DNA of 42,745 nucleotides from a virus. The stretch spans positions 1 through 42,745 of IMG/VR virus record IMGVR_UViG_3300043399_000251; one strand, written 5' to 3'. The translations under genes were made by a program, and so were the position numbers. Below the pieces are notes generated by a model. It made no database searches. It was not told the DNA's origin and worked only from the letters and a program-made list of their open reading frames with translations. Positions 1,148 through 39,646 of the stretch are shown in pieces (position 1 is the stretch's first letter; each line of letters starts with the position of its first letter).

Positions 1148-1398
1148 TGCCACAGAGCCGAGAAGAAAAGGCGGCGAATAAAATCGCAGACATCTTCGCA
1201 GATGAAAGGCTCAATGTGGTTCAGTTAGGTTACGACACTTCCCTGACTTTTACTCCAAACATAATCAACAAAATAAAAGGTTGGTTACATTGGCACGACC
1301 AAATTGCAGAAAGCGTTCATTTGCGTGATGATGGGGGAATGGATTTCATCGATGGTGATTATTTAGAATACATCAAACGGAATCGCAACAGATTATAA
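1147..1398 (+). CDS. Hypothetical protein, 83 aa
   Basis: The ATG at 1147 is preferred over an upstream in-frame ATG at 1117 because AAGGAGGAG lies just before it and it forms a TAATG overlap with the previous stop. The N-terminus (MPQSREEKAANKIADIFADE) looks helical and the C-terminus is basic. It is the last gene before the hairpin terminator at 1410. Function unknown. Confidence 0.6.
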   Translation: MPQSREEKAANKIADIFADERLNVVQLGYDTSLTFTPNIINKIKGWLHWHDQIAESVHLRDDGGMDFIDGDYLEYIKRNRNRL

Positions 1399-1409
1399 AA
1401 ACATGCAAC

Positions 1410-1435
1410 AGCTCCAGTGCGGATGCACTGGGGCT
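1410..1435 (+). terminator. Hairpin terminator of the first rightward operon
   Basis: An 11-bp stem (AGCTCCAGTGC with GCACTGGGGCT, one G-U pair) closes a GGAT loop 11 nt past the last stop codon. Only a short T tract (CTTT) follows, so termination may be partial. The non-coding origin-like region begins just after it. Confidence 0.7.
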
Positions 1436-1516
1436 TTGGCATACCCGCAAGCAGGGGGACCCCCACAAATTGTCGACAAATCCACATATATCCTTATTTA
1501 TCCTAATATACATAAG

Positions 1517-1644
1517 TTATCCACAACCTTATCCACAGACAAAATATGACAAAATAGGACAAATATTGAGTTATACACAAGGTTATCCACAGATATTAGG
1601 AACTTATACACATGTGGATAAAGTTATACACAGGGTTATACACA
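1517..1644. repeat. Left cluster of DnaA boxes
   Basis: Within 128 bp there are four perfect TTATCCACA boxes (1517-1525, 1529-1537, 1583-1591, and inverted at 1613-1621). Four boxes with one change, TTATACACA, lie at 1571-1579, 1604-1612, 1624-1632 and 1636-1644. A weaker inverted site (TGTGGAAAA) follows at 1649. The sites match the E. coli DnaA consensus rather than the TTGTCCACA form common in high-GC actinobacteria. Confidence 0.8.
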
Positions 1645-1691
1645 ACCTGTGGAAAAAATTTATCAAAAATTTATTATTCATTTAAAAAAAG

Positions 1692-2020
1692 ATTACGATG
1701 GACTCAAAAAATCACGGGGAACTTTTTTCAGGAATAGATTACGAAGGGCTTAAAAAATCACGGGGAGTTTAGATAGATGTTTAATACTGATATATATAGT
1801 AATAATAGCTTAGCTTCAAACCTCCCCAAAATATCTTAAAATCTAGAATATTTATGTATGTTTAAATATAAATACATTACGAATATCTCAAAATATCACA
1901 GAAATATGGGGAAATTTTCACTGTTTAAATAGGGTTATATAAGGATATATAAGGATATGTAGGTAAGGATATAAGTATATATGTCGATAAATAGATATTA
2001 CGATGGGGGCTGGAAATCAC
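1692..2020 (+). repeat. Four iteron-like repeats, ATTACGA-N12-ATCAC
   Basis: Copies lie at 1692-1715, 1738-1761, 1876-1899 and 1997-2020. All are exactly 24 bp and in the same orientation, with ATTACGA and ATCAC conserved and a variable 12-bp middle. The first three share CT[CT]AAAA before ATCAC, and the first two extend into CGGGGA. Start-to-start distances are 46, 138 (three times 46) and 121 bp. They are not palindromic, which fits iterons bound by a replication initiator or regulator. Confidence 0.65.
1941..1972 (+). repeat. AAGGATAT direct repeats in an AT-rich segment
   Basis: AAGGATAT occurs at 1941-1948, 1951-1958 and 1965-1972, with an inverted copy at 1488-1495 near the start of the DnaA-box cluster. 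The segment could be the duplex-unwinding element of the origin, judged from composition only. Confidence 0.45.
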
Positions 2021-2082
2021 CAATTACTCATATATCAATATATTTTTAACTTATTAGACATTTATTCAAAGTTATTACTAAG

Positions 2083-2113
2083 TTATCCACAGGTTGGGGG
2101 TACTTGTGGATAA
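2083..2113. repeat. Right pair of inverted DnaA boxes
   Basis: TTATCCACA at 2083-2091 and its reverse complement at 2105-2113 face each other across 13 bp. The pair lies 35 bp upstream of the promoter of the proteasome-like gene, so DnaA binding here could also affect that promoter. Confidence 0.7.
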
Positions 2114-2147
2114 CTTTTCTGATATTAAAATAGGACATATCAGACAT

Positions 2148-2176
2148 TTGACTTGTAGTCAATCTTCTGATAGAAT
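2148..2176 (+). promoter_or_regulatory. Promoter of the proteasome-like gene
   Basis: TTGACT at 2148-2153 and TAGAAT at 2171-2176 are spaced by 17 bp. The start codon of the downstream gene is 31 nt beyond, with GGAG at 2196-2199 as ribosome binding site. The promoter stands alone and serves one gene. Confidence 0.7.
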
Positions 2177-2206
2177 TGGCTATGTCAAGAGATATGGAGA
2201 TTATAT

Positions 2207-2743
2207 ATGACATGTATTGCAGTATTAAAACAAGATGATTCTTTATATATGGCTGGTGATAGAGCTGTAAGTAATGATAGTGAAATCAACTTCCTATCCA
2301 CCCCGAAAGTTTGGAAAGCAGGAGCGTATCTCTTTGGATATGCTGGTCATCTCTCTGCATTAACTCTATATCATACCTTTAATCCTCCACAACCCCCGAG
2401 GGGCTTGTATGGAGAAGAACTAGACAAGTTTATGTATAACAAGTTTCTAGGATATATGGCAGACTTCTACGATAAGCGTAGCATTAAGACAGATGGTCTG
2501 GATTTACTCATAGCGGTTAGAGACCGCATTTACGAACATTCTACAGACAACATGTCTTTGTATTCCTACGACACGGATTACAATGCAATTGGAACAGGTT
2601 CGCCATATGTTATGGCAAGTCTTTTCTCTACCGCCGACTTCGAGCTTTCTGGGCGAGAGCGTATCAAACTTGCTGTAGAATCTGCCTGTAAATTTTCGCC
2701 TTCTTGTGGCGGAAAAGTAGATGTTATTTCTGTAAAAATCTGA
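2207..2743 (+). CDS. Proteasome beta / HslV-like Ntn-hydrolase
   Basis: This 178-aa protein looks like a self-compartmentalising threonine protease of the proteasome beta/HslV superfamily. After removal of Met1 the N-terminus is Thr-Cys-Ile-Ala. Counting that Thr as residue 1, Asp falls at 17 (in MAGDR) and Lys at 33 (in STPKVW), exactly the catalytic triad spacing of the family. A GYAG segment near 45, the AIGTGSPYVMASL block (about 127-139) and a C-terminal GGKVDVISV strand match family landmarks. There is no propeptide, as in HslV. No HslU/ClpX-like unfoldase is encoded in the window, so the ring might use a host ATPase or act alone. The gene has its own promoter beside the origin region. 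A plain Ntn-hydrolase with another substrate cannot be excluded. Confidence 0.82.
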   Translation: MTCIAVLKQDDSLYMAGDRAVSNDSEINFLSTPKVWKAGAYLFGYAGHLSALTLYHTFNPPQPPRGLYGEELDKFMYNKFLGYMADFYDKRSIKTDGLDLLIAVRDRIYEHSTDNMSLYSYDTDYNAIGTGSPYVMASLFSTADFELSGRERIKLAVESACKFSPSCGGKVDVISVKI

Positions 2744-2781
2744 TAAATTATCCATTTATTTTTAGATTTTTTATCAGATTT
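2736..2781. terminator. Bidirectional hairpin between convergent genes
   Basis: A 12-bp inverted repeat (AAATCTGATAAA at 2736-2747 and TTTATCAGATTT at 2770-2781) spans the stop codon of the proteasome-like gene. Flanking A and T tracts allow use in both directions. It ends the rightward transcript and could also stop the long leftward transcript. The rest of the gap to 2928 is very AT-rich with repeated TTTAGATTTT and holds no gene. Confidence 0.6.
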
Positions 2782-2928
2782 ATTTTTAAATTATTTTCAA
2801 ATTTTATTTGAATTTTTAATTAGATTTTTATTTAGAATTTTCTTTAGATTTTAATTCAATTTCTATCTTGCTTACCTTATATAAAAGAAAGATAATTGCA
2901 AAGTTTTGTAATAAGTCAAAGTATTCCA

Positions 2929-3498
2929 TTATTCATCTCCGTCTAATAGTTTTATGGTTGAACAGGGATAGTTTATATACCCTGCATCTTCATCTTGTTC
3001 ATTACTGCATCCCTGACAAATAATCCAAGTTCCTAAATCATCAATATCTATTGGATTGTGATATTCACGGATACGCTGGATAGATTGTTCTGCTCTTCCA
3101 AATTCATTAGCTAGAACTCTTAGGTAGTCGGTATCAATAGACATAGCGTCTACCCCACCCTCCTGACATTCGCAGTTGTATCCGTCTGCTTCGATAGAAG
3201 CCAATAGGTCTATGCTATTATGTTTATATGTTGACCCTGCTGCATGAGGAAATAGTGGTTCATATGTTTTTCTAAAAATCTCGGACTTACAAGGATAGAA
3301 CTCACCGTTAATTCCCTTAATAATCCAGTCACCTAACCTAGCAGTCATGTAGCCCTCTATAGTTCTAATTACCATGTTATCTCCATCCATCCAGACGGCA
3401 TCAATATCATAACCGTCAAAATGGTCTGAGATTTCATCCCAGTTATCTCCCCTAAACTGCACAGCATCTATTTCTATAGGTTTCTTATAAAACTTCAT
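2929..3498 (-). CDS. Phage protein with MKFYKKP N-terminal domain and Cys-containing tail
   Basis: The start at 3498 (MKFYKKPIEIDAVQF) is preferred over an upstream GTG because this motif opens a common phage protein family whose first domain ends with GDWIIKG..GEFYPCK..IFRKTYEPL (about residues 60-85). The C-terminal part has a CQGC pair followed by INYPCSTIKLL, which recurs in the gene at 4359-4664. It is the last gene of the leftward block, ending at the AT-rich convergent gap. The biochemical role of the family is unknown to me. Confidence 0.7.
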   Translation of the reverse strand: MKFYKKPIEIDAVQFRGDNWDEISDHFDGYDIDAVWMDGDNMVIRTIEGYMTARLGDWIIKGINGEFYPCKSEIFRKTYEPLFPHAAGSTYKHNSIDLLASIEADGYNCECQEGGVDAMSIDTDYLRVLANEFGRAEQSIQRIREYHNPIDIDDLGTWIICQGCSNEQDEDAGYINYPCSTIKLLDGDE

Positions 3499-7170: not shown

Positions 7171-7593
7171 TTAGAAATAGTCCTCTACCATGTAGATGTA
7201 TTCTGGACAAAGGTTGCCTACAGCAGCACCAATTAGCAATCCAACCGCTTCATATTCTGAATCGGAAGATAGATTAGAGTTATATACAAATTCATAAATA
7301 ATGTCATCAACTGTGTATCCCTCGTCAAGTACAGAACATACTTGGTATCCCATTTGCAACAATTCAGCATCCGAGATGTTTGCAATAACAGAATTTCCAT
7401 ATCCATTTACAGAATTTAAGAATTGCTCTTCATCTGTATACACTGGCTCTGGTTCTGGAGTCCATTCATTAGTTACCTCTGGGGCTGGACTAGTATTATT
7501 ATTTGTAGCACTATTGGAACTTCCAAACATAAACGCTACTGCTGCCAATAGGACAGCACCACCAATAAAGAGTGGCTTTTGATTTTTTTCCAC
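7171..7593 (-). CDS. Secreted or membrane-anchored DUF732-like protein, 140 aa
   Basis: The GTG start follows AAGGAG. Residues 8-26 form a hydrophobic signal anchor (LFIGGAVLLAAVAFMFG), followed by a Pro/Glu-rich linker and a domain with two cysteines (YQVCSVLDEGYTVDDII, AVGNLCPEYIYMV). The D..FL, G..VC..L..G and A...LCP spacing matches DUF732, a small exported domain typical of actinobacteria. It is a paralogue of the next gene. Its place near the lysis block suggests a cell-envelope role. The promoter at 7641-7669 serves it. Confidence 0.7.
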   Translation of the reverse strand: MEKNQKPLFIGGAVLLAAVAFMFGSSNSATNNNTSPAPEVTNEWTPEPEPVYTDEEQFLNSVNGYGNSVIANISDAELLQMGYQVCSVLDEGYTVDDIIYEFVYNSNLSSDSEYEAVGLLIGAAVGNLCPEYIYMVEDYF

Positions 7594-8523: not shown

Positions 8524-9753
8524 CTATCTTATCCTCCCTACCATACTTGCTGTTGTTAGCACTTGACCAGCTATAACTGCTGCTAAAACAACTTTCTGAG
8601 ACTCTTTTCGCTTTTCTGGTGTCATATCTGCACCAATGTTTGCGAAGGCGGTAAGTGCCTTTCCTGGGTCTGTAAAGACCGCTCCGAGAATCTCTGATGG
8701 ATTCTCGAAAACTTGTAGTGCGTCTGCCACTTCTGCTGTTAAAACTACACCATTTTCTAGGGTAACAGGCTGGTCTGGTGGCAACTCCGAGTAATCAATT
8801 CCCATTTCTATAAGAACATCTGCTGGAATTGGCTCAGATTCATATTTATTTAATAGCTCATTTACACCATCTAGTTCTGGTTGCTCTGTAGGCTTCACAG
8901 AAGGCTCTGGTTTAGGTTCTAAGGCTGTTTCCTCTGGAGTAGGTAGATTTGTTGGCTCTGGCTCTTTTGTAGGCTCTACAGTCGGTTCTATGGTCGGTTC
9001 TACCGTAGGCTCTGGAGTGGGTTCTACTGTTTCTGTTTCAGTAGGTTCTGGGGTAGGCTCAACTGTCTCGGTTGGCTCTGGTGTTGGCTCAACTGTTTCT
9101 GTGGGCGTTGGTGTGGGTGTAGGCTCTGATGGACACTCTGATATATCAAAAACTAGGCTTCCGTCCCAACATTCAACATCTGGTTCTGGAACGATTGGTT
9201 CCTGAGAAAAAGCACTAGGTGGAACTACATCAATTGTTTGTGAATTAGGTATGGTCCAAAACAGTCTAGCATCTGCAGCCCCTCCAGACTCATGCTGCAG
9301 AACTTTTATCTCATAAGAGACTCCAGCCTCCAGCTCTATCTGACCAGAACCATTGTATAGCCAGGCTCCCTGTTCCCACCAACTATATACAACATCAATA
9401 CCGTTTATTTTAACAATCATTCCATCATCGTTGCTTGTGTAAAATGTATATAGTCCTGTTTCTGGAACTGTAATATATCCTATCCATAGGTTTGTAAAGA
9501 ATTCAGGGTTATCTGGGTTACATTCTGTAGCGTTACCACCCCATGAGTAATCAATATTATTTGAAACTGTGCAGTATGTATAGTTATTTATATCAAAATC
9601 TGGGGATATTTGGTCTGTATATGCTACATCTATTTTTGAATACCATTTAAGTCCTGGCTGAGTGAGGGCATATGTTGGTGAGATAAGGAAAATTAAATAA
9701 GAAAGTATTATTGGCACTAAAGCAATAATGTTTAATATCTTCTTCTTATTCAA
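8524..9753 (-). CDS. Secreted PA14-domain protein with Pro/Thr/Glu stalk, 409 aa
   Basis: Residues 1-29 form a signal peptide (LVPIILSYLIFLISPTYA). Residues about 33-180 look like a PA14 (GLEYA-type) carbohydrate-binding domain: PETGLYTFYTSNDDGMIVKING, GVSYEIKVLQHESGGAA and ARLFWTIP are its landmark strands. A stalk of TPTPTPTETVEPTPEPT repeats spans about 210-305, then a 100-residue helical part ends in a hydrophobic helix and RIR. Such a layout suits a surface-exposed, wall-spanning protein. It has its own promoter and sits between a lysozyme-like gene and the holins. It might bind host glycans during lysis or superinfection, which is inference. Confidence 0.75.
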   Translation of the reverse strand: MNKKKILNIIALVPIILSYLIFLISPTYALTQPGLKWYSKIDVAYTDQISPDFDINNYTYCTVSNNIDYSWGGNATECNPDNPEFFTNLWIGYITVPETGLYTFYTSNDDGMIVKINGIDVVYSWWEQGAWLYNGSGQIELEAGVSYEIKVLQHESGGAADARLFWTIPNSQTIDVVPPSAFSQEPIVPEPDVECWDGSLVFDISECPSEPTPTPTPTETVEPTPEPTETVEPTPEPTETETVEPTPEPTVEPTIEPTVEPTKEPEPTNLPTPEETALEPKPEPSVKPTEQPELDGVNELLNKYESEPIPADVLIEMGIDYSELPPDQPVTLENGVVLTAEVADALQVFENPSEILGAVFTDPGKALTAFANIGADMTPEKRKESQKVVLAAVIAGQVLTTASMVGRIR

Positions 9754-9866: not shown

Positions 9867-10397
9867 TTAATACCAATTTTTTAATTTAAAATGAGCATAA
9901 GCATCACAAGGAGAACCGTATCTAACTTTGATATATTTGACTCCCCATTTAATTTGTGTTGCTGGATTAGTCTTCCAATCTTTACCTTCACTTGCCATTT
10001 TATTAGCAGGAAGAGATTGAGGAATACCATAAGCTCCAGATGATGGATTCTCAGCTAAGTGATTCCATCCGCTTTCGTGTGTCCAAAGATTACTTAAACA
10101 GGTAAATTGTTTCTTTCCCCATTTATGCTTTTCTTGGATATACCACTTTGCGTATATCTTGTTACTTGTTGGTTTTCCTAAAACAATTTTAATAGAAACT
10201 TCATTTGGTCTGTTTCTACTTACTTTTATTTTAGAAGACCTACTAGCAAGGGTCTTGTCATGACCCTTCAGCTCCTTTATTTTAGACTCAGAAATAACTA
10301 CCGCTGAGCCTACTTGAGAAGCTAGAGCAGGGTCTTGACTTGTGTTTGACCCTACTACGGCTAGAGTTACTACAATGAGTGTTGTTGCTATTTTCAT
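9867..10397 (-). CDS. Secreted lysozyme-like (transglycosylase / Apf C-terminal type) protein, 176 aa
   Basis: A signal peptide (MKIATTLIVVTLAVVGSNT) precedes a basic linker and a lysozyme-fold domain at about 75-176. The domain starts FTCLSNLWTHESGWNHLAEN, where Glu in HESGW is the expected catalytic residue. It continues with SGAYGIPQSLPANKM, NPATQIKWGVKYI and RYGSPCDAYAHF. This matches the aggregation-promoting-factor/SLT-like wall hydrolases of actinobacteria. Two cysteines could form a disulfide outside the cell. It may be a second muralytic enzyme beside the endolysin at 21527, or aid late release or entry. Confidence 0.8.
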   Translation of the reverse strand: MKIATTLIVVTLAVVGSNTSQDPALASQVGSAVVISESKIKELKGHDKTLASRSSKIKVSRNRPNEVSIKIVLGKPTSNKIYAKWYIQEKHKWGKKQFTCLSNLWTHESGWNHLAENPSSGAYGIPQSLPANKMASEGKDWKTNPATQIKWGVKYIKVRYGSPCDAYAHFKLKNWY

Positions 10398-32044: not shown

Positions 32045-32372
32045 GAAGATATGGTCGCTCTCTATTCTTGTTAATCTTTTCTACAAAGACTTCCTCAAGA
32101 GAAGATGTTGTTACTCCATTGGCATCTAAACCTGCCCATAGGTCAAGAACACGGACAATAATGTCTGCTAGTTCTTCTACCACTTCTCGCTCACCCTTGC
32201 TCTTTCTAAGTGCCTCTAGCACCTCTGTAGCCTCTGAGTGAATCATTGCAATCTGCTTTGCATAAAATACAAATGCATCCTGCTCCTGAATACGCTTGGT
32301 TGGTTCCCAAAAACCCTTATCTTGGGCAGTTCTGTGTAAATCTTTTGCTAGTAAGTCAAAGCTTACATTCAT
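32028..32372 (-). CDS. MazG-like nucleotide pyrophosphohydrolase
   Basis: The 114-aa helical protein has HSEATEVLEAL (Glu47, 50) followed by VVEELADIIVRVLDL (Glu66/67, Asp70), the metal-binding ExxE..ExxD pattern of MazG-type all-alpha NTP pyrophosphatases, and ends EKINKNRERPYLHG, a family signature. It would hydrolyse non-canonical or excess NTPs. It overlaps the polymerase gene by 4 bp. Confidence 0.85.
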   Translation of the reverse strand: MNVSFDLLAKDLHRTAQDKGFWEPTKRIQEQDAFVFYAKQIAMIHSEATEVLEALRKSKGEREVVEELADIIVRVLDLWAGLDANGVTTSSLEEVFVEKINKNRERPYLHGVKG

Positions 32373-35300
32373 CGTACAAACTCCTTAATAGTTAATGTTC
32401 CAGTTCTAGTTTCTTGCAATACTGGTTTGCAGCGAGTTCCTGGCTTTGCGTTAACCAAAGCATTTGAATACATGCCAGAAAATACAGTAGTTGCAAATAA
32501 TTCTTTATCGTTATTGGCAAATACGATGTTTCCCATCTTATCGCCTTTCTTTGTTTTTCTACCACTAAATGATACCACATACATCTCATCATCGATTAAA
32601 TTAAGATTCTTCGCTGCAAGAAACTTGGTAAATGGAGTGTCTGCCTTCTTAATATCCTCTGGAGTGCAGTATTCTGCCATTCTGTTATCTCCTACAAGGA
32701 TAATATATTGTTTTCCAGTTTCAATAGTGGTATCTTGCTTATCAAATACGCCTACAGCACCTGTCTTATCTACAAGTTCTACACGACTCCAGCCATCTCC
32801 ACGCTTAATTGATTTAACCATAGCCATTACTAAGAATGAGCCAGTCTCTTCATATTCTTCCAGTGGCTTGATAAAAGCATCCATCCATCGTGGAAGGTCG
32901 TTAACAAACTCAGGGATATTTAGCATTTCATAATAGTGTTCATGCTCATTACCAGTTCTAGGGTTGTCATCAAATGCCGCACCACCAATCTTATTTAAAG
33001 ACTCAACGGCACGAGCATTGATTCCAGAACCCTTTTCACGAGTTACCTTGCGAAAATTCTCGTAAGAAGTATATGGTCTACGCTTAATAATAGCATTAGC
33101 AATGTTTTCAGAAATATATTTGATATTGCCTAGACCAAATCTAATTGCATCTCCTTCGAGTGTGAAGTCTACACCGCCCTCATTGATATGTGGCAAACGA
33201 ATCTTAATTCCCATACGCTTTGCTTCGATTAGATACTCTGTACGAGTGTCCTTATCTTTTTCGTTTCGTAGAAGAGAGTGCATAAACTCTACAGGGTAAT
33301 AACGCTTTAGCCAAGCAGTCCAATATGAAAGCATAGAATATGCAACGGCGTGAGACTTGTTAAATGAATAACCTGCGTGTGCTTCAAAGTCGTGCCATAG
33401 GTTTTGTGCATCATGTGCATCAATGTGTTTGCTTGCACCCTTAATGAACTCATCTTTATACTTGTCAAATTCTCTAGCATCCTTTTTCTTACCGATAATC
33501 TTACGAACCTTATCGGCTTCTGCCATAGTCATTCCACCAAGTTTTACACAGGCAAGCATAACTTGTTCCTGATAAAGAATACATCCATAGGTATCTTTTG
33601 TAAACTCTTCAATAATTGGATGAAGATATGTTACTTTAGACTTACCCTTCTTACGCTTAATATACTCAGCACCAATTGTATTCATAGCTCCTGGACGAAC
33701 AAGAGCATTTGATGCAGCAAGTTCATCAAAGTTTGATACACCCATCTTAATCAAGAGGTTTGTATAAGGTACGGTTTCAGCTTGGAATACGCCTCTTGTG
33801 TGACCTGCAGTAAGGTCTAGATATACTTCTGGGTCTGCCAAGTCAAGTTCTGTTAGGTCAATTTCTTTACCAGTTCTATCCTTGATACTGTTTAGCGTAT
33901 CATGAATTACGGCAAGAGTTTTAAGACCTAGAGCATCAATCTTAATCAAACCAATGTCTGCTGCTTGTTCCATATCCACTGCCACTACAGGAATTCGGTC
34001 ATCACCCTGCGTATCTTTACGAGTCTCCATTGGAGCAAACTGAGAAATCTCATCTTTAGCTGTAACGATACCTGCAGCATGCATACCAGTGCCACGAATT
34101 CGACCACGAAGTCTGTCTGCATACTGAACCACTTCTGGATACTTCTGTCTAAACTCTGCTGTGCTTTTACTTGTAATAAACTCTTCCCAAGTATCTACTT
34201 GCTTTAGTGCCTTATTTACTTCTCCAAGTGGGACATGGAAAGCACGAGCAACATCTCGCACAACACCTTTATCCTTAAAGGTAAGAAATGTAGCAATAGA
34301 TGCAACATGACCATACTTAGATGTTAGATACTCCTTGACTTCACTTCTACGGCGGTCTTCATAGTCTGTATCAATATCAGGAAAGTCATTACGCTCGGGG
34401 TTAATGAATCGGAAGAATAGCAAACCATACTTAATTGGGTCTACTTCTGTAATGCCAAGAGCATAACAAACTAAAGAACCTGCAGCAGAACCACGACCTG
34501 GACCAACAAGAATATCATTACTCTTAGACCAGTTAATCATATCTGCTACAACAAGAAAGTATGAACTAAAGTTTTTATCTTTAATAATTTCTAGTTCATC
34601 ATACAAACGCTTTTTATATTCTTCATTAACTGCAAGACCTTTACGAACAAGCCCAGAGTATGCCAGCTTTTCTAGCTCTGCATGGGGGTCTGTGTATTGG
34701 GCTGGTAGAAGGTCTAGGTTTTTCTTTTCTGTGTACGAGCCGATTTTATCGCTAATTGCTACAGAGTTTTCATATAGGTCTGGTCTGTCAATCCCTTGTG
34801 CTTCCATCTTAGTTTTAACATCGTTGTGTCCAGACAAATAGATATCGAGTTCAGAGAATGACATCTGACGGTCTCCGTAAAGATAGTCAAGTCGCTGCAT
34901 AAGGTCTTTAATCTTTGTGCTACCCTCATAAGTAGAACCCTTTTGAATGTTAGGGTGCGTACCAAGAATAAGCATAATTTCTTCTGCAATACGGTCTTTA
35001 GGGTCTGCATAGTGGCAGTCTAGTGTAACGGTACTCTTTACACCCATCTCATCTGCAAGTTTAAGTAATGCATGATTAAGTTCTGCAGGATTATGTGGCT
35101 GCAGTTCCATGTAAAAGTCTTCACCAAATACTTGCTTAAACCAGTCTGTATATTGTTTAGCAAGCGACATATTGTCATTCTCAATTGCTTTTGCAATAAT
35201 GCCATTCATACATCCAGATAGCACAACAAGACCGCTTGAATGCTTTTCTAGAATGTCAAAGTCCATACGAGGCTTCATAAAGAAACCATCATTCCAAGCA

Positions 35301-35629
35301 TCTTCTGATAGCTTGCCTAAGTTTTGTAATCCTGCATCATCTTTAGCAAGAATAATTAAATGGTTATAAATTTGGTCTTCCGCTTCACGGTCTTTACGAC
35401 TACGCTTGTCGAAACGGTCATTGGTAAAGTATGCTTCAATACCTAAGATTGGCTTTACGCCTGTTTCTTTTGCTGCATTAAGCATATCAATGTGACCAGA
35501 CAGTGTTCCATGGTCTGTAATAGATAATGCTGTCATACCTAGTTCTTTTGCACGAGTCATAAGCTCAAGTGGTGACGAGAATCCGTCAAGCAAACTATAG
35601 TATGAATGCGAGTGATGATTATGATACAT
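32369..35629 (-). CDS. dnaE: DNA polymerase III alpha subunit (DnaE type)
   Basis: The 1086-aa polymerase begins with a PHP domain (HNHHSHSYYSLLDG, ITDHGTLSGH, ILGIEAYF). It carries VGPGRGSAAGSLVCYALG (375-392) and FPDIDTDYEDRRR (416-428), the C-family catalytic Asp triad region, and late helix-hairpin-helix and OB-fold parts (YIIL, VVSFSGRKTKKGDKM). It is a full-length bacterial-type replicase and the likely replicative polymerase of the phage. No separate DnaQ or clamp gene is seen. The ATG follows GGAG; the promoter is at 35655-35683. Confidence 0.95.
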   Translation of the reverse strand: MYHNHHSHSYYSLLDGFSSPLELMTRAKELGMTALSITDHGTLSGHIDMLNAAKETGVKPILGIEAYFTNDRFDKRSRKDREAEDQIYNHLIILAKDDAGLQNLGKLSEDAWNDGFFMKPRMDFDILEKHSSGLVVLSGCMNGIIAKAIENDNMSLAKQYTDWFKQVFGEDFYMELQPHNPAELNHALLKLADEMGVKSTVTLDCHYADPKDRIAEEIMLILGTHPNIQKGSTYEGSTKIKDLMQRLDYLYGDRQMSFSELDIYLSGHNDVKTKMEAQGIDRPDLYENSVAISDKIGSYTEKKNLDLLPAQYTDPHAELEKLAYSGLVRKGLAVNEEYKKRLYDELEIIKDKNFSSYFLVVADMINWSKSNDILVGPGRGSAAGSLVCYALGITEVDPIKYGLLFFRFINPERNDFPDIDTDYEDRRRSEVKEYLTSKYGHVASIATFLTFKDKGVVRDVARAFHVPLGEVNKALKQVDTWEEFITSKSTAEFRQKYPEVVQYADRLRGRIRGTGMHAAGIVTAKDEISQFAPMETRKDTQGDDRIPVVAVDMEQAADIGLIKIDALGLKTLAVIHDTLNSIKDRTGKEIDLTELDLADPEVYLDLTAGHTRGVFQAETVPYTNLLIKMGVSNFDELAASNALVRPGAMNTIGAEYIKRKKGKSKVTYLHPIIEEFTKDTYGCILYQEQVMLACVKLGGMTMAEADKVRKIIGKKKDAREFDKYKDEFIKGASKHIDAHDAQNLWHDFEAHAGYSFNKSHAVAYSMLSYWTAWLKRYYPVEFMHSLLRNEKDKDTRTEYLIEAKRMGIKIRLPHINEGGVDFTLEGDAIRFGLGNIKYISENIANAIIKRRPYTSYENFRKVTREKGSGINARAVESLNKIGGAAFDDNPRTGNEHEHYYEMLNIPEFVNDLPRWMDAFIKPLEEYEETGSFLVMAMVKSIKRGDGWSRVELVDKTGAVGVFDKQDTTIETGKQYIILVGDNRMAEYCTPEDIKKADTPFTKFLAAKNLNLIDDEMYVVSFSGRKTKKGDKMGNIVFANNDKELFATTVFSGMYSNALVNAKPGTRCKPVLQETRTGTLTIKEFVR

Positions 35630-35685: not shown

Positions 35686-36336
35686 TTACCAGTCTACTGA
35701 GGTGCTGGCGGTTGAGTCTACATCTAGACCCATATAGAAACCTTCTTGGTCGGTATACGCAACTTGACGAGTAGCGGTTTTCATCAAATCAAATGGTTCA
35801 ACGCCGCTAAAGTCAAATGGTGTTTCATCGACTGCACCTGGAATCAAAACATAGTTTGTTGAAGTTCCAGTTCCGTTTCTGCGAAGTGACCAAACGAGAT
35901 TGGTAATAGAACCAGTTTCATCGTCAAAGTCGCTAATAGTGTTAGTAGTTGTTGATTTAGGACCAACGCCTTGTGACCAAATGGCTACATAGTTTTCTTC
36001 ATTATCATACACATAAACATTTGTGTAAAAACGAAGCTTTGCTTTCCATCCAGCTTTTGGGTCTTTACGATTTTGTTCGCAACCATAGCAACGACCTTCA
36101 TCGTCCATAGAGCAAAGTGCTTTACGGCGATAATCTTTTGGATTTGTATGTTCTGCGACTACAATAGCTTGACCTAGCTTTTCGTCATAATTTTTTGAAT
36201 CGGCACTAAGTTCGTTAACAAAACGAAGCTTGACCTTCTGTCCATCGTCTAGCTTAAGCCAACGACCCTTTGGACCTTCTGCTGCACGAGCATCAATCTC
36301 TTTGTGTGCTTGTTTTAGCGATTTTACAATTGCCAT
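35686..36336 (-). CDS. ssb: gp32-like single-stranded DNA-binding protein
   Basis: The 216-aa protein has WLKLDDGQKVKLRFVNE at the start of an OB-like core and a zinc site His63, Cys75, Cys83, Cys86 (LCSMDDEGRCYGCEQNRKD). T4 gp32 uses His64, Cys77, Cys87, Cys90, so spacing is close. KLRFYTNVYVYDNEENYVAI follows; the C-terminus is acidic and Ser/Thr-rich (GLDVDSTASTSVDW), as expected for a protein-contact tail. It covers ssDNA at the fork and helps RecA. It has its own promoter. Confidence 0.8.
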   Translation of the reverse strand: MAIVKSLKQAHKEIDARAAEGPKGRWLKLDDGQKVKLRFVNELSADSKNYDEKLGQAIVVAEHTNPKDYRRKALCSMDDEGRCYGCEQNRKDPKAGWKAKLRFYTNVYVYDNEENYVAIWSQGVGPKSTTTNTISDFDDETGSITNLVWSLRRNGTGTSTNYVLIPGAVDETPFDFSGVEPFDLMKTATRQVAYTDQEGFYMGLDVDSTASTSVDW

Positions 36337-36388: not shown

Positions 36389-36417
36389 AGTATATCAGAG
36401 TTGGAACAATAAGTCAA
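36389..36417 (-). promoter_or_regulatory. Promoter of ssb, TTGACT-N17-TATACT
   Basis: TTGACT (36417-36412) and TATACT (36394-36389) on the minus strand have 17-bp spacing and overlap the end of the primase gene. A 10-bp palindrome ACCTATAGGT follows at 36365-36374, in the leader. Confidence 0.7.
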
Positions 36418-37345
36418 GTGTCTTGTTGTCCATGGCTGATAAAATTTCTTCTTTAGTCATGTCCCCTATGTCCTTTTTTCCCTCTGGAATAGGAATAATG
36501 CTTATATCTCTAGACTTTATATTATCTGTAATCTTCTTTACAAAAGACTGCCCAGCATCGTCTGAGTCTGGTGCTAGAATAATCTTAGTTGCGTACTTTT
36601 CAAGCAGTTTTATTTGCTCTCTACTGATATTTGCTCCTAAAGTAGCTACTGCTGGAAATCCCATCTGATAAAGTTTAATTGCATCAAATGATGACTCTAC
36701 CACAATGATATCTTGGAACTTACATCTATTTAGATTAAATAGAACCTTAGAGCGTGGTAAGTTAGTAGAGTTCTTGAATGACTTACCCTCAATTGAACGA
36801 GCAACAAATCCAACATACATTCCATTTTCTGTTTGTACTGGAACTGTTACCATATCTTGGTTTACTGAATATCCCAAGTGAAAAGCAAGTACATCGCTCC
36901 TAGAAATCCCCCGAAGATTAAAGTAGCCCATGCTGCGGTCAGAATTAAGGCAATCGTTGTGAAGGCGTTTGATAAGGTCGGAGTCGAATGGCTCCAGGTC
37001 TTTAGTCTTGTTAGTTTCTGTAAAAATTTGCTTTGCAAAATCTGTCTCCTTTGCTGCAGAGCTAATCATTCTATTTGCTTCAAAGTATGAACGCTTTGTA
37101 GTTTTCATTACAAAGTCTAGCAATGTTCCATTCTCTCCACAGGAGAAACAAAGAAACAGTCCTTTTTCTTTATCTACTTCGCAAGCAGGTGTGTGTCTGT
37201 TATTATGAAACGGACAAAATATTAAAAAGTGAGACTCAAGCTCTGAGCCTATAGTTATACCGCATTGGGCGAGAACTTCTTTAACCTGTCCTTGGGTATA
37301 GGATTCATTGGTATTAGTCTTGTTCCGACTACTGCCTGATAGCAT
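36395..37345 (-). CDS. dnaG: DnaG-type DNA primase
   Basis: The 316-aa protein has an N-terminal CHC2-like zinc site (Cys44-Pro-Phe-His47 ... Cys66, Cys69 in FLCFSCGENGTLLDFVM) and a TOPRIM domain (Glu217 in IIVVESSFDAI, LGANIS, LAPDSDDAGQSF at 258-268). It lacks the C-terminal helicase-binding part of host DnaG. It lays RNA primers at the fork. Its first 91 bp overlap the upstream gene and no other ATG start is available, which is unusual. Confidence 0.9.
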   Translation of the reverse strand: MLSGSSRNKTNTNESYTQGQVKEVLAQCGITIGSELESHFLIFCPFHNNRHTPACEVDKEKGLFLCFSCGENGTLLDFVMKTTKRSYFEANRMISSAAKETDFAKQIFTETNKTKDLEPFDSDLIKRLHNDCLNSDRSMGYFNLRGISRSDVLAFHLGYSVNQDMVTVPVQTENGMYVGFVARSIEGKSFKNSTNLPRSKVLFNLNRCKFQDIIVVESSFDAIKLYQMGFPAVATLGANISREQIKLLEKYATKIILAPDSDDAGQSFVKKITDNIKSRDISIIPIPEGKKDIGDMTKEEILSAMDNKTLDLLFQL

Positions 37346-38094: not shown

Positions 38095-39321
38095 TTATAA
38101 AAAGCTAGAATCTTCTACCTCTCTAAACTTTCCCTTGTCAAAATCTACCTCTAGGATAAAGTCTCCAAGGAATCCATGCCTATTTTTTCTAAATGCACAC
38201 TCTAGAACATCTGTATTTTGCTTTCTACCCATTGCTAAAACAAAGTCAGCATCGTAGGCAATCTGTCTAGACCATGCTACCTGTCCTAATTGTGGGACAG
38301 ATTCTAGGTCTGTTGCATCATCTGGTGTAGCAGATGCAATAGCAATAATTGGAACTTGTTCTGAAATTGCCAAAAGCTTTAGTTCTCTAGACAAGTTCTT
38401 AATCTTTACAGTCTCATTTGCATTAGTGTTAGAATTATCAGTCATTAACTGTAAGTAGTCAATAAACACAATGTCTGGTTTATACTGGTCAATCTTTGCC
38501 CTAATAACACTTGGCGTTACTGCACCTTCGCCATCACCTGAGATAATCTTAAATGGCGACTTACCTACAAGGTTTTCGTCAGCCCATTCTTTAAAGTCTT
38601 CTTGGTCAACTTTTCCAGAAGACATAACTCTATGGCTAAACTTTCCATCTCCAATTACTGTAAAGATACGATTTCGTACTTCATTCTCAGTCATTTCAAG
38701 CGATAGAATCATTGGCACACGACCAGCTTTCCAAGCCTGTACTGCAAAATATAGTGCCAGCCAAGACTTACCAATTGCAGGATAGGCTAGCAAAATACCT
38801 AATTGTCCTTTTGAGATTCCCATTGGGAGGCAGACATCGAACGATGGGATATTGGTGCGGATTCCAATGTCTCCGTTCTTAGCAGCTTCACGAGTCTTTT
38901 CAAAATGAGCCAAGGCATCTTCAACATCTGTAACTTCAACATCACGAACCTTTGCTGTTATTCTAGAGAGATTTGACACTGCACCGTTTACAAAGTCAAG
39001 TGCTTTACTTGTCTCTCCGTTTTGTAATAACTCTGCAGACTGTCTAAGGGTTTTTCTAAGTGTTTCATCTAGAAAAGCTTCTTTTAGTTTATTTACATGA
39101 TAAACAGTAGGACCAACCTCTACAGGCTCAAAGTCCCTGAATCTAGTTTCTAGAATCTCTATACTTGGAATCTGCTTTGTATCATTGTAATAATCCTTGA
39201 TGAATTCCCAAACATCACCACAATTTTTCATCATTGGGTCTATTGCGTTTTCAAAAAGAATGTGGATATCTTTATTCTTACATACTGCAGATAATACTTC
39301 TACTTCTTCACGAATTGTCAT
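38095..39321 (-). CDS. dnaB: DnaB-type replicative helicase
   Basis: The start at 39321 follows AAGGA with 8-nt spacing. The 408-aa protein has the RecA-like helicase core with Walker A-type ILLAYPAIGKSW (about 176-187), ILSLEMTENEVRNRIF, Walker B IVFIDYLQLM, SRELKLLAISEQVPIIAIA and a late arginine region. It unwinds DNA ahead of the polymerase and is typical of phage DnaB relatives. It is preceded by a gene that may be its loader. Confidence 0.9.
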   Translation of the reverse strand: MTIREEVEVLSAVCKNKDIHILFENAIDPMMKNCGDVWEFIKDYYNDTKQIPSIEILETRFRDFEPVEVGPTVYHVNKLKEAFLDETLRKTLRQSAELLQNGETSKALDFVNGAVSNLSRITAKVRDVEVTDVEDALAHFEKTREAAKNGDIGIRTNIPSFDVCLPMGISKGQLGILLAYPAIGKSWLALYFAVQAWKAGRVPMILSLEMTENEVRNRIFTVIGDGKFSHRVMSSGKVDQEDFKEWADENLVGKSPFKIISGDGEGAVTPSVIRAKIDQYKPDIVFIDYLQLMTDNSNTNANETVKIKNLSRELKLLAISEQVPIIAIASATPDDATDLESVPQLGQVAWSRQIAYDADFVLAMGRKQNTDVLECAFRKNRHGFLGDFILEVDFDKGKFREVEDSSFL

Positions 39322-39646
39322 CAACCATTTCCTTAACAATCTTTTGAGTCATTACTCTTCTTTCAGCCCTAAGTCTATCATCTCGTTCTTTATCTGTCAA
39401 TGTCTTAATTAAAACTTCGCAGTTGTTATAAAACCAATTTAGAGGATGACCCTCTTTATTTAAAGTGAAATAATAATCTATGGCTTTTTCTACATTCTCT
39501 TCGGAGAAGTCTTCAATAAGTGAGACCATTGCCCACTTTTCTTTATACTTATTTATTGGTAAAACCTTTCCATATCTAGTTTTGTACTTATTAGCATAAT
39601 ATGCGAGCATACCAAATGCTGCACTAGACTGGTCTTTAGTCACCAA
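39308..39646 (-). CDS. Hypothetical protein, possible helicase loader, 112 aa
   Basis: A helical protein (YYANKYKTRYGKVLPINKYK, AMVSLIEDFSEENVEKAIDY, RAERRVMTQKIVKEMVDD) lies directly upstream of dnaB with overlap, where phage helicase-loader genes are often found. There is no diagnostic motif, so the loader role is inference from position. Confidence 0.5.
   Translation of the reverse strand: MVTKDQSSAAFGMLAYYANKYKTRYGKVLPINKYKEKWAMVSLIEDFSEENVEKAIDYYFTLNKEGHPLNWFYNNCEVLIKTLTDKERDDRLRAERRVMTQKIVKEMVDDNS

Follow-up and report, generated by a model that had tools for sequence, protein, structure and literature searches.

A conserved module of host-type DnaA boxes in an uncultured relative of the Stanwilliamsviridae, a candidate replication origin

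Introduction

Little is known about how the start sites of replication are selected in large phages that encode a polymerase, a primase and a helicase of their own. The question was raised here by a window of 42,745 bases (the whole stretch of DNA analyzed, IMG/VR record IMGVR_UViG_3300043399_000251), in which a non-coding gap is crowded with DnaA boxes of host type. An earlier note on this DNA had taken the boxes for a phage replication origin that recruits host DnaA, an unusual choice for a virus with a private replisome. Since a module of this type is conserved in Streptomyces phages that are in culture and form plaques, the question can be put to a direct test in laboratory strains. DnaA boxes were also tied concretely to long terminal repeats in two phage groups, the relatives of the Stanwilliamsviridae and the T5-like phages.

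Results and Discussion

Identity and gene content of the phage

As judged from its sequence, the phage is an uncultured relative of the Stanwilliamsviridae (Streptomyces cluster-BE phages), a family presumed virulent (PMC10690885). The best named-phage matches of its DnaE were to Streptomyces Stanwilliamsviridae, with an identity of at most 56% among the named phages listed. The window encoded DnaE, a single-strand DNA-binding protein (SSB), primase, DnaB, a UvsX-like recombinase, a Cas4-like exonuclease and a terminase. All four replisome proteins named in the earlier note were thus present:

32369..35629, minus strand, DnaE-type DNA polymerase
35686..36336, minus strand, single-strand DNA-binding protein
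36395..37345, minus strand, DNA primase
38095..39339, minus strand, DnaB-like helicase

No PHROGs match to a portal, major capsid or tape-measure protein was found among the 18 window proteins scanned, so the window is probably a genome fragment. One further record (G001) overlapped it at 99.97% identity where compared and extended past its right end, and a 95 kb record (G002) was syntenic with it, at ~72–85% identity in the longer blocks. A host search with DnaE and the dehydrogenase returned no relative in genome_contigs. The protein encoded at 7171–7593 carries a DUF732 domain, which is mainly actinobacterial, and gives a hint at the host.

Anatomy of the gap

The gap contained the tail of the upstream frame and a single TTG-started ORF (1470–1685), which was taken as spurious because its region held 50 gap columns in the alignment with G002; the earlier description of the region as non-coding was upheld. 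Small plus-strand genes lie to its left and a plus-strand gene to its right. From position 2929 onward the long ORFs were almost wholly on the minus strand, so that two gene blocks converge. The features of the gap and its right flank were as follows:

1399..2206, no strand, non-coding gap holding the module, more conserved than fourfold sites
1403..1442, plus strand, hairpin downstream of the preceding gene, with 18-nt arms that are 83% complementary (pair I7)
1517..1656, no strand, main DnaA-box array, with boxes at 1517+, 1529+, 1571+, 1583+, 1604+, 1613-, 1624+, 1636+ and a one-mismatch box at 1648-
1683..1715, plus strand, direct repeat 1, ATTACGA...AAAAATCAC (D1)
1729..1761, plus strand, direct repeat 2, ATTACGA family (D1)
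1867..1899, plus strand, direct repeat 3, ATTACGA family (D1)
1988..2020, plus strand, direct repeat 4, ATTACGA family (D1)
2080..2116, no strand, inverted DnaA-box pair 2083+/2105-, 15-nt arms, 93% complementary (I10)
2148..2176, plus strand, promoter-like TTGACT-17-TAGAAT upstream of the 178-aa gene
2207..2743, plus strand, HslV/proteasome-like peptidase gene, 178 aa, E=7e-5 to 1m4y_A
2754..2862, no strand, tandem 12/24-mers forming an AT-rich tract where the gene blocks converge

The main array included three tandem pairs at 12 bp start-to-start, and each of the four 33-nt direct repeats consisted of ATTACGA, a spacer and AAAATCAC, all on the plus strand. No element-encoded Rep was identified among the window proteins scanned, a subset of the ORFs. 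The tract at 2754–2862 was ~90% AT and the most AT-rich stretch of the window, as its homologue was in G002, and it is a possible unwinding element or (bidirectional) terminator. Local AT content reached 80% at 1831 and 90–91% at about 2756–2761, where a terminator role is also possible. Searches for structured RNA gave sub-threshold matches only.

The HslV-like gene that adjoins the module had homologues in G002 (74%) and, at a different location, in G018 (41%); no relatives were confirmed in viral_contigs through this 178-aa protein.

Number, phasing and form of the boxes

The motif TTATCCACA occurred six times in the gap (1517+, 1529+, 1583+, 1613-, 2083+ and 2105-) and TTATACACA, an R2-type DnaA-box variant (PMC5835720), four times (1571+, 1604+, 1624+ and 1636+), exactly the counts, strands and coordinates, in both orientations between 1517 and 2113, given by the earlier note. 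The one-mismatch box at 1648-, TTTTCCACA, and lone boxes elsewhere in the window (40662-, 40883- and 14619+) can be added to that description. Dinucleotide shuffles of the whole window held on average 0.65 copies of TTATCCACA and 0.88 of TTATACACA, and none of 100 shuffles reached eight of the former or five of the latter, in agreement with the statement that the cluster is far beyond chance. In IMG/VR the three-box pattern was found in at least 120 stretches and the reversed pattern in 19; these counts represent an enrichment, yet box clusters also occur in many other viral contigs.

Adjacent same-strand boxes no more than 60 bp apart formed 31 pairs in 14 records (G009, here a near copy of G010, and the T5-like phage SPC35 being left out), with 21 of them at 11–12 bp start-to-start and the others at 13, 20–22 or 42–43 bp. 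Phasing near 10–10.5 bp was strong in these 14 records (R 0.91, p about 5e-5), and 45 adjacent pairs were obtained with the real motif versus none with the reversed one. Since the records were chosen for having boxes, these statistics test spacing and not presence. A chance origin of the cluster was rejected on the basis of the shuffles together with the spacing and reversed-motif control. Escherichia coli DnaA prefers, and binds in vivo, box pairs 2–3 bp apart (PMC11317965), and the 2–3 bp between the tandem boxes would suit cooperative DnaA, the distance of mostly 11–12 bp between neighbors being the one that DnaA dimers favor. The DnaA domains PF08299 and PF00308 were found in none of 18 records, whereas control genomes matched; a phage-encoded DnaA was thus rejected within the records searched, and any DnaA bound would be that of the host.

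The form of the boxes is puzzling in this respect. The earlier note had recognized the E. coli form rather than the high-GC actinobacterial one, and where the host is known this was borne out, the gaps of eight Streptomyces phages holding 21 copies of TTATCCACA and none of TTGTCCACA, despite the preference of Streptomyces DnaA for the latter, which is the high-affinity box of S. coelicolor (PMC4285127). However, one Streptomyces oriC has been annotated with boxes that permit A at the third position (PMC3583192), which makes binding of Streptomyces DnaA to the phage TTATCCACA boxes plausible.

With its many boxes of the high-affinity E. coli type, the module could also act as a sink, in which boxes multiplied by the phage copies would titrate host DnaA and halt initiation on the chromosome, and titration of DnaA by plasmid-borne boxes is established in E. 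coli (PMC5835720). A pure sink, however, needs neither a second repeat, nor a fixed order, nor an inverted pair, all of which were kept, and the gaps of several relatives held only one to four boxes. A sink is for these reasons quite unlikely.

Conservation in related phages

The order of array, repeats, inverted pair, promoter-like site and AT tract was kept in G002. Identity between the two over aligned bases was 72% for the array, 77% for the repeats, 74% for the inverted pair with the promoter and 83% for the AT tract, compared with 57.5% (239/416) at the fourfold sites of DnaE, a protein that was 93.5% identical. Constraint on the non-coding module thus exceeds that on silent positions of codons.

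An 8-mer count that did not presuppose the motif gave TATCCACA as the only 8-mer occurring at least twice in all of 13 corresponding gaps (Bmoc and Ankus excluded), followed by TTCGTAAA, from the second element, in 7 of the 13. For G008, G010, BillNye, Byblos, NootNoot, Riptide and Bmoc the analyst drew the gap limits around the boxes, and the gaps of Ankus and Byblos, which are unannotated, could be placed by the boxes only. The TTACGA element was enriched in most but not all gaps (6-mer P of 0.10 in Wakanda, 0.09 in BillNye and 0.18 in Byblos).

The earlier note had proposed searching related phages for conserved boxes. They were retained in G002, and the corresponding gap contained one or more copies of TTATCCACA in each of the ten named phages of Stanwilliamsviridae type that were compared, so the named family does not refute the proposal. 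Two copies lay within 25 bp of each other in eight of the ten, while Mildred21 and Bmoc each had one exact box and a degenerate partner. In a blastn search the gap region of Mildred21 matched 83 Streptomyces phage records, and in 49 of these the match spanned 80% or more of the region.

The metagenomic relatives were less uniform. Among 29 identified through DnaE, nine, including all five records >80 kb, had at least two TTATMCACA within 60 bp, and the other 20, many of them fragments, did not. G015 contained the switch from plus to minus strand without a long gap or an array, and G018 does not seem to cover the switch, as it shows no block on the opposite strand. Boxes in G004 and G016 lay near the divergent rather than the convergent switch, with pairs beside divergent gene blocks at 8865–8888 and 10290–10323 of stretch L215 (G004) and within 6527–10494 of L220 (G016). 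Variants of ATTACGA were spread, rather than gathered in one gap, in L221 (G017; 4152, 4208, 4487, 5501 and 11173) and occurred at 8797–9619 in L223 (G029), the scatter in G017 and G029 covering about 1–7 kb.

Control of transcription, with DnaA at the boxes regulating early or convergent transcription, for example from the promoter-like site at 2148–2176, would fit the position of that site next to the inverted pair, its retention in G002, and the box pairs near divergent genes in G004 and G016. Promoter-like sites in 1300–3000 were nevertheless not above shuffles (6 versus a mean of 9.9), the main array is >400 bp from the promoter-like site, and in the Boydwoodruffvirinae the gap sits between the 3' ends of convergent genes. 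A primarily regulatory role is accordingly very unlikely.

A replication origin as the best reading

The gap at 1399–2206 appears to be a DnaA-binding module of origin type, and a replication origin is the best reading of it, held at about even confidence. With its boxes, second repeat, inverted pair and AT-rich tracts it looks like a composite DnaA/iteron origin. Phased boxes, a second direct repeat, AT-rich tracts, strong conservation and the absence of a DnaA of the phage's own from the records searched would together find their best explanation in an origin served by host DnaA. On this view the host protein would bind cooperatively to the phased array at 1517–1656 and to the inverted pair 2083/2105, and the four ATTACGA...AAAATCAC repeats would be occupied by a further factor. 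The strands would then open in an AT-rich stretch, either around 1831 or in the 12-mer tract at 2754–2862, and the phage DnaB, primase, SSB and DnaE would take over. The central claim of the earlier note thus gains from the sequence and spacing of the boxes, their conservation, the lack of a phage DnaA and the iteron-like and AT-rich neighbors, while DnaA binding, strand opening and a start of replication at the module are predictions drawn from these features.

GC skew, which had been suggested as a check, gave an ambiguous answer. In the total skew an extremum did occur near the module, but as a cumulative maximum that tracked gene orientation, and its sign was reversed at fourfold sites. 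In G002 the total cumulative skew likewise peaked near the module, as gene orientation predicts, and fourfold sites gave the opposite sign. Because the skew follows gene orientation, and its extremum coincides with the switch in that orientation, it cannot decide on an origin, and it was rejected as uninformative proof of one. Wakanda, with plus-strand genes around its gap, showed a weak change in fourfold-site skew, from -0.04 before the gap to +0.13 after it (SE 0.05–0.06).

Several observations argue against the origin, namely the 20 of 29 metagenomic relatives without a cluster, the boxes at the divergent switch in G004 and G016, the single exact box in Mildred21 and Bmoc, and the lack of TTGTCCACA. 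The satellites MiniFlayer and MulchRoom are said to lack key replication genes (PMC10690885), and satellites that borrow the replication machinery of a helper might carry its origin. No array was found in either (MulchRoom had no boxes, and MiniFlayer one TTATCCACA inside coding sequence), which speaks weakly against an origin.

Position relative to terminal repeats

Direct terminal repeats of about 11 kb have been described in BE1 phages (PMC5764925). Five of six Boydwoodruffvirinae had the inverted pair 60–62 bp outside their terminal repeat of ~11–12 kb. In Mildred21, NootNoot and Riptide, sequence comparison placed the start of the right repeat copy 62 bp past the inverted pair, as against 81 bp in Bmoc, and repeat lengths taken from the literature (PMC10690885) gave distances of 62 bp for MulchMansion and 60 bp for MindFlayer. 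The repeat edge read GTGTAAT plus one base in all six Boydwoodruffvirinae and GGGTAATG in Wakanda, where it is >5 kb from the boxes, and differed in BillNye. A GTAAT(G)/GTG edge motif is thus common to Streptomyces phages of different subfamilies, including cases in which edge and boxes lie far apart; the GTAAT...GTG motif was noticed after the fact.

When the distance of 62 bp was mirrored from the inverted pair of the window, it led to the following position:

2020..2021, no strand, predicted edge of a direct terminal repeat lying to the left, by analogy with the Boydwoodruffvirinae

Here the minus strand reads GAGTAATTG/GTGATTTCC, with the slash at the predicted edge. The pattern GTAATT?GGTG had four occurrences in the window, both strands counted, and in G002 the sequence GTAATAATGTG stands no more than about 2 nt from the corresponding predicted edge. 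The predicted terminal repeat would then enclose the array and the direct repeats and leave the inverted pair immediately outside. In a search for contigs ending at the predicted edge, G002 alone matched the two exact patterns, and its own end lies elsewhere.

Because one subfamily has the module at a constant position by the terminal repeat, the main rival of the origin is a role in end formation or DNA entry. Pair, repeats and array would mark the edge of the repeat and act in cutting, in duplication of the ends or in a pause during entry, with DnaA perhaps as a structural partner. The constant distance in five Boydwoodruffvirinae (and 81 bp in Bmoc) and the landing of the mirrored 62 bp on GAGTAATTG/GTG are in its favor, as are the two tandem box pairs inside the left terminal repeat of SPC35 and the DnaA boxes listed among the features of a proposed T5 injection-stop signal (PMC13250531). 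For the window phage, however, the terminal repeat is itself a prediction, and the boxes of Wakanda and BillNye are about 5 kb from the start of the terminal repeat. Boxes so detached from the edge imply that the role they share is not end formation, and this reading is on balance rather doubtful.

Initiation and end formation might also be coupled. In a phage family with a full private replisome, host DnaA would be recruited to a composite DnaA/ATTACGA module where the terminal repeat has its edge, and one nucleoprotein site would link the two processes; T5-like phages would have arrived at a similar layout independently. This combined scheme is unlikely as it stands.

Comparison with known systems

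P1 oriR is a DnaA/iteron plasmid-type origin. Like such origins and chromosomal oriC (PMC4285127), the module favored here as an origin is non-coding, with phased boxes that follow the 9-mer consensus, second direct repeats and AT-rich tracts. Unlike them, it is known from sequence alone and belongs to a phage with its own DnaE, primase and DnaB, and the phage records gave no match to a DnaA domain. The E. coli loci datA and DARS (PMC5835720) are also box clusters outside oriC, but they are chromosomal and have no second repeat family.

DnaA boxes as such have already been reported in phages, among the features of the proposed T5 signal (PMC13250531) and as Ori-Finder predictions in a Pseudomonas phage (PMC11512268), and the kind of element is therefore known. 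No prior description of the present module was found by title or abstract in the openly licensed literature on phage DnaA boxes, actinobacteriophages, Stanwilliamsviridae and cluster BE.

Close counterparts were the gaps near the genome end of Stanwilliamsviridae (Wakanda, BillNye, Mildred21, MindFlayer and others), which like the window combine TTATCCACA pairs with repeats of TTCGTAA, the reverse complement of TTACGAA, over about 1.0–1.4 kb. They differ in having fewer boxes (one to four exact) and in being GC-richer. The gap is found at about 121 kb in Mildred21, 118 kb in MindFlayer and 119 kb in Wakanda. Convergent genes at the gap were seen in annotated Boydwoodruffvirinae, as in the window, whereas the gap of Wakanda lies among plus-strand genes.

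T5-like phages belong to another family, and for the T5 region an injection-stop signal has been proposed (PMC13250531). Of the features of that signal the window has the boxes, the repeats and the inverted pair, and a terminal repeat is predicted. The ATTACGA repeat of the window was not seen in the compared stretch of SPC35. In SPC35 (L227, 3505–3586) two tandem box pairs are laid out like those at 1517–1591 of the window, with similar intervening sequence. Window and T5-like phages were 78–79% identical over about 87 bp, and the tandem pairs in the left terminal repeat of SPC35 (5417/5429 and 5478/5490) resemble those of the window in their 12 bp spacing and non-coding setting.
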